A stretch of DNA of 64,000 nucleotides. Source: Nymphaea colorata (Eukaryota; Streptophyta; Magnoliopsida; Nymphaeales; Nymphaeaceae). Below, piece by piece: positions 50,101 through 54,380 of this stretch; the stretch's first letter is position 1; every line of letters begins with the position of its first letter. The stretch spans positions 20,723,716 to 20,787,715 of the forward strand of contig NC_045144.1 in NCBI RefSeq assembly GCF_008831285.2. The letters are read 5' to 3'. Under the pieces are notes generated by a model. It saw only the letters and a list, made by a program, of their open reading frames with translations, searched no databases and was not told where the DNA came from. Made by a program: the position numbers and the translations under genes.

Positions 50101-53100
50101 GATCTGTTACTAAGCCACTCTGTAGAGCTGGCTTAAGAAGGAAAAAGATTAGCAACACATGGTCATTTATGGTCTGTGTTCACCTTGAGCAGAGAACTGA
50201 AATGTTTTCTTAGGTATTTAAGGCATTTCTGTCATTTTCATCTGTTCATTGTGCTAACACCTATGTGCTTGTATAGGGCACCTTTGTACTCCAAAGGCAT
50301 TAATACTGTAATATATCAAGGATAATCCCAAGATAAGTGTGCATGATTCATGGGATCCCAATTTGTTGCCTTCAGTTTTATCATTTCCTTCTCCTTCAAT
50401 GGAGGACCTGCAGTCATGCGACCCATTCTCTGTATTGTTCTTTCACTAAGACCCTTCAAGTTCACTGCCTCAAGGAGATTGCTCTAGTGCCATCTGAAAC
50501 AAGCTGCCTCCTAGTAGGACTTATTTTTTATATACTCCTGAGCATGAGTATGAAAAAAAAGCTTCAAACAGTTCCACAAAACTATTGTAGAATTTAGGAG
50601 AATAATACCATAGAAATGACATTCAGACTATTCAAAACAAGTAGGTTGAAGATGGGTTGGTGACTTATATCAGAGAATTATCAACGCCAGTAAATGGTAT
50701 GTGAAAGAATGCGTGAAGAGTTGGGGGGTACTAAGAACTCTCTGTTATCTTGAAGCAAGGGATGAATTAAGGCTTAAAACTTTAGGATAGGTAAGTCGAC
50801 ATAATACTCTAAGGGTCCATTTGATGGCTTGGAAGAATTTAACGTGGTAAATTAACCATGGTAAATTTTTCTGGAAAAAATTACAGGATGAAATTTCTCC
50901 CTCTTTCAATCTGAGGTCCTGTTTGATGACAAGGTAGAATTTAACGTGGTAAAATTAACTCTGTTTGATGCACAAGGTAGTTTTTTGCAGGGTTTAACCC
51001 TGTTTGATGCACAAGGTAGAAAATTTGAGAAAAAACATACTGATGTGTTGTATGCAGAGGATTTGCTTCAATCGCTGCCCGTACTTGTCAACAATTGCTG
51101 TGTTTAAGCCAAGGGTACCACTTGGAGGGGGTTTTAGTTCATACGCTTGGAGGGGGCTCTTGTAAATAAATTCCACCCTTGTACCGTACAAGTTTCATGT
51201 GAGTTGTGCATGATGTTGAATGTTCCCATGATTTTGAAAGTTTATTCAGATGCATGATTAAACGAAGGCAACATAAATAGAGACTGAAGAATGAGTAGAG
51301 TGCCTCATTTTAGTGATGGACATATTAATACAGAGATTGACTTCATTTCTCAGCTATCATGCACATCATAAGTAGTTTGGCCATATGTTGTTTCCATCTT
51401 TGCCATACACTTACAAAGGGGTTGTACCATTTCATGATCATGGCTACTCCAGGTGTGTTACTTACATGGTTATGAAACATAGGTCAGATGAGATGAAGCA
51501 GCACTTTAGAGAATGAATTTGCCATAGTGCTCATCTCATCTAAAAAAGCAATAGCCTGAATGAAGTAACAACTTAGCCAGAAAATGGGACACTTGTCGAT
51601 AGAGAAATTGTATACAAAACAATCAGCCCCTTCAGAAACAACTTTTAATAAGTATTCATGTAGTTTTTTCACATGTACATGAATTAATATGGGGAGAAGA
51701 AAAACATCAACTTAAGCACAACAGCAGAGGAAAGAATGAAAAGAGTCATCTCTGCCCTTCCTCTTCTTTCAGAGTTACGAGAGAAGTAATCCATTGCTTC
51801 CATACAGCACCTTCTAAAATAAATGCTGGCAGGAAATCTCTTTTTACATCATCCTTAACCTGCTCAAAACTCTTGTCGCTGGAGAATCCCATATATGTGA
51901 AAAACATTAATAAATCTAGTGGTCCAAATAGAAGCCCGTCAGCTGCCACTTTTGCAGTTACAAAGCCCACCATGTTAGGCATGAATCGAAGCCGGTGCTT
52001 TATGAAACGGCCCAAACCTTCGTATCTGCATGAGACAACGTAAAAAATCCAGAGAAGTAATGAAGGAAAGAAGTAAATGAAACCACTGCTACTTCTCACT
52101 TCTGTACATCCTAGTGACTATTCTCATCTTTCTTAGAACAATTACAAGCAGATTACCAGAAAGTGAATAGGCAGGTGGAAACTAAATTGACATGCATAGA
52201 GAAGGCAAACAAAGCTACATTAGACTGACCATACTTGGATCCCTGCAATCTCTAGATCGATTTTCTCCTTTTTTTTTTCCACTGAAAATCAAATGTTCAT
52301 ACTTACAGGTAACATGAGTAGACAAGTGGAAGCTACTGAAAATCTTTACACATTGTAAAAAATGATCCCAGAAAATTGAAGGCATCTCCACACAAAAGGG
52401 AAAAAGAAATTCACACAACTTTTAAAGGATTTGTTTATCCAGTGAGTTGAGGTAATTTTTGAAAGAGCACTTGATACAGTTGTGAAGGAAACACAATTTG
52501 AGGTAAGGGTTGAAAGAGCCTTGATACAGTTGTAATTGCCAACCGGTAATTACTATTTGTCATTCTCAAAGAAAAAGTAATTAGTTTCCTTATTTAAAAA
52601 AAAAAAAAAGGCCAACATGGACTGATCTGTTTCAGCCTATATGCTATCTGTAAGCAAACTAAAAGTCCACTTGATGAGAGACGTTGAATGCCATACAGTA
52701 GATGCAAGTTATGGCAGTCACTATGTACAGAAAGTTGCAAACGTATATCTGCGAGTTCTCAAGAGTCAAGCCAAGCAAGAGGAAGTGGGAGCAGTGGCGG
52801 CAGGGGAAGCCAAGCAAGAAAAGAACTGAAAAATCAATAAAGCCCAAACTTAACTTCATTCGTATAATCCCTTGAAACCAACACAGAAACGAGAGGAAAA
52901 GGGCTAAGAACGAAACACAAATGAATCGGAAAGGTGGACAACAAAGACCCCACAATGCCCAAACCTCGCATTTCCCTCATATTACCAGTGAAACCAGAAC
53001 TGAAACAACAAGAAAAAAAGCAAAAGGGGATTTAGATTTACTCTGTGAAAGAAGCAGAACAAATGATGACAGCGAACGAACCGGCGGAGTGGCGACGGTG

Positions 53101-54380: not shown

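Follow-up and report, generated by a model that had tools for sequence, protein, structure and literature searches.

A mosaic Pack-type element, most probably of the PIF/Harbinger superfamily, in the last NUP133 intron of Nymphaea colorata

Results

Locus and insertion site

The window, a 64,000-bp stretch of the water lily Nymphaea colorata (C7:20723716-20787715), contains a NUP133 gene, which was confirmed by a PF08801 match at 38298-40427 (3.8e-19) and by a match of its last exon to a PDB NUP133 chain (1.6e-41). The last NUP133 intron spans 48126..53855 on the plus strand (5730 bp) and has GT...AG borders (...GTGCAG/GTAAAT and ...TTTGCAG/CAAGAG, read by eye). An element at 50813-53351 accounts for 2539 of these 5730 bases. 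As originally predicted, it lies within the intron without breaking coding exons, and the splice sites of the intron are intact.

Further features were recorded in the surroundings. A chlorophyll a/b-binding protein gene is located downstream of NUP133 at 59021-60275 (PF00504, 5e-52 for 59613-60275). A 27-bp stretch (GTTGCATTTGATAGCC(C/T)CGGATCT...) was present at 60797-60823 and, on the opposite strand, at 21468-21494 (93%). The copy at 60797-60823 is directly preceded by TAAG, and the two stretches are perhaps the ends of another transposon family. An Rfam scan of the window yielded nothing at the gathering threshold.

Element ends and chance expectation

The 2539-bp element is flanked by the target-site duplicates TAA at 50810..50812 and TAA at 53352..53354. 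Its termini, GGGTCCATTTGATGGCTTGG (at 50813) and GGGCCCGTTTGATTGCCCGG (at 53351, reverse-complemented), are identical at 15 of 20 positions. The left end (50813..51034, plus strand) consists of the terminal inverted repeat (TIR) and subterminal repeats (GTTTGATG...GGTAG motif) and matches the family at 82-91%. The right end (53084..53351, minus strand) consists of the TIR and GGGTGAAATTTCACCC-type palindromes and matches the right end of a transposase-bearing relative on C6 (L012) at 92%; the left end of L012 matches at 84%. Subterminal repeats differ between the two ends: four copies of a motif like CTGTTTGATGCACAAGGTAG are found at the left (50813-51034), three GGGTGAAATTTCACCC-type palindromes at the right (53201-53301), with one decayed palindrome copy at the left (50886-50901).

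Chance occurrence of such end pairs was estimated by dinucleotide-shuffling the surrounding 10 kb 30 times, using TAA or TTA on both sides, an inverted match of at least 15/20 and a spacing of 60-5000 bp. The shuffles gave a mean of 0.37 pairs per 10 kb (maximum 2); one pair was observed in the 10 kb and 15 in the whole window. An equal or higher gapped end-to-end score arose in 4 of 1000 letter shuffles and, in contrast, in 8% of 2000 random window pairs. TIR and target-site duplication (TSD) alone are thus not beyond chance, which would suit an inverted repeat arisen by coincidence around ordinary intron sequence, with the Mpv17 piece described below brought in by segmental duplication. Since the end structure is close to chance expectation, the case for an element rests on other genomic copies.

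Family copies in the genome

The genome (407,766,735 bases on 783 contigs) was searched with the element and its flanks, which gave at least 53 matches; 40 of 894 candidates were scored, and counts from this query are therefore lower bounds. The left 218 bp matched at least 40 places (40 scored of 579 candidates) and the right 266 bp likewise at least 40 (40 scored of 359 candidates). Matches came to within 7 bases of 50813 at 37 of the 40 scored left-end places (window included) and to within 7 bases of 53351 at 37 of the 40 right-end places; matches at the remaining three right-end places stop at 141, 209 and 212, and a second piece is present at two of these. Both queries end at the borders and so cannot show where similarity stops. 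The query with element and flanks does: with 49 bases of right flank included, all 8 right-end matches stopped within 11 bases of the right end, and with 13 left flanking bases included, 26 of 28 left-end matches began within 12 bases of 50813.

Twenty loci were fetched, comprising 18 family loci and two source loci. Both ends were recognised in seven family loci (L009, L012, L019, L020, L022, L023, L024); in the other 11, a second end was not recognised within the fetched stretch, and L027 showed similarity near a right end. Starts resembling GGGCCCGTTTGAT were found at both ends of other copies. Outer flanks of all seven other two-ended copies gave no blastn match to the 2 kb on each side of the window element. 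Adding L033 and the window copy brought the two-ended set to nine copies. Their 3-bp flanks were identical in 8/9 and TAA or TTA in 7/9, given that one border search, from which several borders came, itself required a T.A flank (two others did not). Of the two exceptions, L019 has AAA/TAA, and L012 has CCA/CCA once its right border is moved one base.

The interior of L022 was matched at at least 13 places on one strand over ~310 kb of C3 (C3:8691735-9000389), mostly at 86-94%. The arrangement would fit tandem duplication of a larger unit that contains the element. L033, a member of the array, has both family ends and TAA/TAA flanks.

The 2.5-kb element with imperfect inverted ends and a TAA duplication, as initially proposed from the window alone, is thereby borne out: the search for further copies, suggested at the same time, found each end at 40 scored places. 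The chance inverted repeat is refuted by these genomic copies, as each end recurs across the family and its matches have their borders at the proposed termini, and a copy on C9 with TAA/TAA and unrelated flanks holds an Mpv17 fragment between family ends. We consider the probability of that explanation to be practically nil.

Superfamily

L012, which has both family ends, carries DDE_Tnp_4 (PF13359) over the full profile (5.7e-16) on the strand running from the right end. Its transposase frame contains one stop, and no Myb match was found in L012 by Pfam scan. The second ORF of PIF elements is Myb-like. Two further relatives, L025 and L028, have the family left end and at least 1.4 kb in common with L012; their right ends were not recognised. 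Both carry Myb_DNA-bind_3 (5.3e-13 and 4.4e-17, respectively, in three minus-strand frames each) and pieces of DDE_Tnp_4 in broken frames. Genome-wide, PF13359 gave at least 150 scored matches among 307 candidates. In the window element, a six-frame Pfam scan gave no transposase match. One account of PIF elements describes their coding set as a transposase and a second ORF (PMC2528002).

The TIRs are short and imperfect and might by coincidence resemble those of another superfamily such as hAT or Mutator. Against this stand the flanks of 3 bp, where hAT and Mutator have 8 or 9 bp, and the presence of PF13359 and Myb/SANT-like domains in relatives that carry these ends, and we judge such an assignment highly improbable. 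Membership in Harbinger, previously suggested from the ends, is supported by the domains of these three relatives and by the prevailing TAA/TTA flanks.

A ribonuclease H1 N-terminal domain (Cauli_VI) was detected downstream of the transposase in the transposase-bearing relatives L012 (1525-5180, minus strand), L025 (4153-8150, minus strand) and L028 (4509-8508, minus strand), at 2.7e-9, 6.7e-8 and 4.6e-11, respectively. It can be read either as an extra domain of this Harbinger lineage or as an old capture.

Mpv17/PMP22 cargo and its parent gene

The largest part of the interior, at 51035..52770 on the minus strand, is a genomic piece of an Mpv17/PMP22 gene comprising 3' flank, the last exon with its splice acceptor and intron parts, with internal deletions. 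It matches a parent locus (L010, C1:30101000-30110900; C1:30.10 Mb) in four stretches at 92-96% (6297-6411, 5536-6159, 4723-5413 and 2684-2892 of that locus). The last exon of the parent matches PF04117 over positions 2-62 of 62 (6.5e-20). Two upstream coding pieces (3729-3794 and 1683-1778) were taken to be Mpv17 exons, judged from plant Mpv17 proteins; neither has a counterpart in the window element, from which the whole parent stretch 2892-4723, including the first of these pieces, is absent. Family ends were not found at the parent locus. In a genome-wide search, PF04117 matched 16 places at E<=1, 12 of them above the cut-off; the parent ranked best (73 bits) and the C9 copy fifth (62.5 bits), and the window copy was not listed.

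Within the cargo, the last-exon remnant occupies 51746..52025 (minus strand). It lacks 42 codons (126 nt) between two ATGG repeats; with 126 nt lost, the frame is still open and comprises 93 codons including the stop. The deletion removes the second half of the domain, so PF04117 was matched below threshold (15.3 bits vs 27; domain positions 4-30 of 62). Of the acceptor, the AG survives, but the next base is A in place of the parental G. Nothing was found for the exon in NCBIfam or PDB, no Mpv17 match appeared in six masked frames of the whole element (Pfam), and 10 pattern matches in viral contigs included none confirmed as a relative. A 58-bp stretch at 52503..52560 is unmatched in the parent and is partly a tandem duplicate of 52447-52483. 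The original prediction had named an Mpv17/PMP22 piece with its splice acceptor on the strand opposite to NUP133. Piece and acceptor stand; the description is to be corrected in that the exon is internally deleted.

The conserved acceptor AG, the 93-codon frame running to its stop and a deletion that is a multiple of three would also be expected of a functional minus-strand Mpv17/PMP22 gene within the NUP133 intron. This would have to be a gene of a single exon, devoid of 42 codons, of the second half of its domain and of the parent's upstream coding pieces, in a genome that has a paralogue with the whole domain on C1. Compared with the parent, the exon shows four synonymous and four nonsynonymous codon changes, too few to judge, with no sign of constraint. 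A full Mpv17 gene in the intron is refuted by the single deleted exon and the missing upstream coding pieces, and a functional one is exceedingly unlikely.

Sister copy of the capture on C9

A second element with Mpv17 cargo, L009 (2532 bp, flanked by TAA/TAA), is located on C9. Its Mpv17 match starts at the identical parent point as that of the window copy, and both copies have in common a large deletion together with the 58-bp filler. The Mpv17 cargo thus lies between family ends at both C7 and C9, each with TAA/TAA and with flanks unrelated to each other. Differences are found in both directions: L009 keeps the 126 nt missing in the window copy and extends further into the parent; in turn, 103 nt including the acceptor are missing from L009, and its exon shows a 1-nt gap. 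Among 1150 three-way sites, 1056 were alike in window, L009 and parent; the parent stood apart at 42, the window at 37 and L009 at 14, and all differed at one. The two cargoes are descendants of one capture, and since L009 reaches further into the parent, their ancestor probably held ~4.5 kb of the Mpv17 gene. A capture, postulated before any parent had been sought, thus gains an intact parent gene without family ends on C1, the full PF04117 match having come from the proposed search for such a gene, and a second copy on C9.

AP2 and response-regulator cargo

To the right of the Mpv17 piece, two smaller pieces from other loci were identified. A 34-bp piece at 52777..52810 matches positions 967-1000 of L032 (C3:20.29 Mb) at 94%; the matched sequence belongs to the 3' portion of an open frame that encodes a partial AP2 domain (6.3e-8, 33.2 bits vs a cut-off of 33.3). 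A 239-bp piece at 52830..53068 matches positions 4559-4799 of L011 (C1:3.148 Mb) at 94%. On one side of the L011 match lies the coding stretch HVLAVDDCLIDRKIVEKILK (within 4262-4327), on the other a coding stretch that partially matches a receiver domain (6219-6305; PF00072, 22.2 bits vs a cut-off of 30.2). The matched part was read as the intron that follows exon 1 of a response-regulator-like gene, presumably a type-A response regulator. The AP2 and receiver-domain matches by which both smaller sources are named fall below Pfam cut-offs.

The 34-bp AP2 piece would be weak alone. It is backed by a second element, L020 on C10, which contains 155 bp of the L032 locus (86%) and the identical AP2-gene/response-regulator joint (96% identity to the window across 80 bp). 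L020 is likewise composite and matches four loci one after another, namely C10:24.288 Mb, C4:22.937 Mb and the AP2-type and response-regulator-like genes. The cargo of the window element accordingly has three sources, an Mpv17, an AP2-type and a response-regulator-like gene, of which the latter two were absent from the original prediction.

The C9 element has the Mpv17 capture in common with the window element without its right half, and the C10 element has the AP2/response-regulator joint without the Mpv17 part; among the copies compared, the right end of the window element is nearest to that of L012. The genome search (40 scored of 894 candidates) yielded no second copy of the whole mosaic and hence no sign that the mosaic as such has moved.

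Genome-wide searches were performed with five element interiors (window, L020, L022, L023, L024). Three of the five (window, L020, L023) are made of several low-copy loci. In the two-ended L023, the interior (4364-6539) matches three low-copy loci (C2, C6, C9), at which a six-frame Pfam scan found no host gene domain within ~2 kb and, at one, a transposon-associated domain. The family may therefore take up non-genic DNA as well, or the genes were not recognised. As far as searched, the L022 interior matched only family copies or pieces, mostly of the C3 array and scattered end pieces, which gives no clear capture. The L024 interior had two long genome matches.

Discussion

Kind of element and order of events

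The sequence at 50813-53351 is, with high confidence, a Pack-type non-autonomous member of PIF/Harbinger with captured cargo. This confidence applies to the kind of element and its cargo; the order of block exchange and insertion is a separate matter. Limits of the reading as an element are its short, imperfect TIRs (15/20) and an AP2-gene piece of only 34 bp. The family ends, their flanks, the transposase-bearing relatives, the three source loci and the junctions in common with two other elements are directly visible in the genome.

We infer from them an order of capture, deletion, recombination and insertion. An ancestor element would have captured ~4.5 kb of the Mpv17 gene between family ends. 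Capture by such elements can proceed through gap repair with template switching or through joint mobilisation of neighbouring insertions. The Mpv17-bearing ancestor would then have lost pieces by deletion and recombined with another Pack element that already joined the AP2-gene piece to the response-regulator intron piece. The recombined product would have inserted at TAA in the last NUP133 intron, with transposase supplied in trans, and would since be removed from the NUP133 transcript by splicing. The left cargo in common with the C9 element and the right cargo in common with the C10 element show that blocks were exchanged between elements.

That this exchange preceded insertion is probable, though well short of certain. 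A C9-type (Mpv17) and a C10-type (AP2/response-regulator) element might instead have inserted close to each other and been joined in place by deletion. Such a fusion would fit the differing nearest relatives (L009 for the left cargo, L020 for the right cargo, L012 for the right end) and a mosaic found nowhere else among the scored candidates, and, with TAA or TTA preferred as target, the outer flanks would by our estimate match by chance in about half of cases. It demands that two elements inserted within a few kb of each other and that both inner ends were then lost, whereas exchange before insertion demands one insertion. Further, a search of 51035-53083 gave no trace of either a left or a right end; this absence of inner-end remnants leans against fusion, which we hold to be possible but less likely. 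Exchange before insertion is therefore the order adopted here. More generally, Pack elements of this family may grow by swapping captured blocks with each other, a reading favoured because junctions are shared between elements.

Possible function of the cargo

Most likely, the Mpv17 piece does nothing today. The NUP133 pre-mRNA carries the cargo antisense to the Mpv17 mRNA: perfect antisense 21-mers cover 98 of 385 in the last-exon coding sequence of the parent (longest run 58 nt) and 102 of 680 in the 700 nt after the coding sequence, and 21-mers in sense orientation were 0 of 385 for the last-exon coding sequence. The element could conceivably silence the Mpv17 parent in trans through NUP133-driven antisense RNA, an effect to which we assign a very slim chance.

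Comparison with known gene-capturing elements

The element is an unusually traceable case and more mosaic than at first apparent. Because one genome contains the sources as well as a sister copy and an element related to the other half, the sequence of capture, deletion, exchange and insertion is open to reconstruction. With it, gene capture by PIF/Harbinger elements reaches an early-branching angiosperm genome. In our literature search, no paper on both Nymphaea colorata and Harbinger was found.

Tourist-like MITEs have PIF/Harbinger ends and TAA/TTA duplicates and are non-autonomous, like the window element, but are much shorter and without host gene fragments. Pack-MULEs of rice carry host gene pieces, often from several loci, between terminal inverted repeats. 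They belong to the Mutator superfamily and have 9-bp target duplicates and long TIRs, in which the window element differs from them.

PIF elements that capture genes have already been published from maize, rice and grapevine, and the mechanism is not new. Pack-PIF elements are reported from maize and rice in a study that also mentions the Pack-MULEs of rice (PMC8903248). As described there, they have PIF/Harbinger TIR ends and a target duplicate, are non-autonomous and contain captured host coding DNA, as does the window element. Unlike these, the latter comes from a water lily, has three sources and has junctions in common with two other elements. One maize Pack-PIF is reported to lie in a gene and to supply its second exon (PMC8903248); the window element, in contrast, is intronic without a demonstrable supplied exon. 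In grapevine, Pifvine-3 elements are described with transduplicated host exons and introns and mostly TAA or TTA duplicates (PMC2528002). They resemble the window element in their internal host genomic DNA, with exons and introns and sometimes common to several copies, and differ in that this DNA is described beside the element's own coding regions, of which the window element has none.
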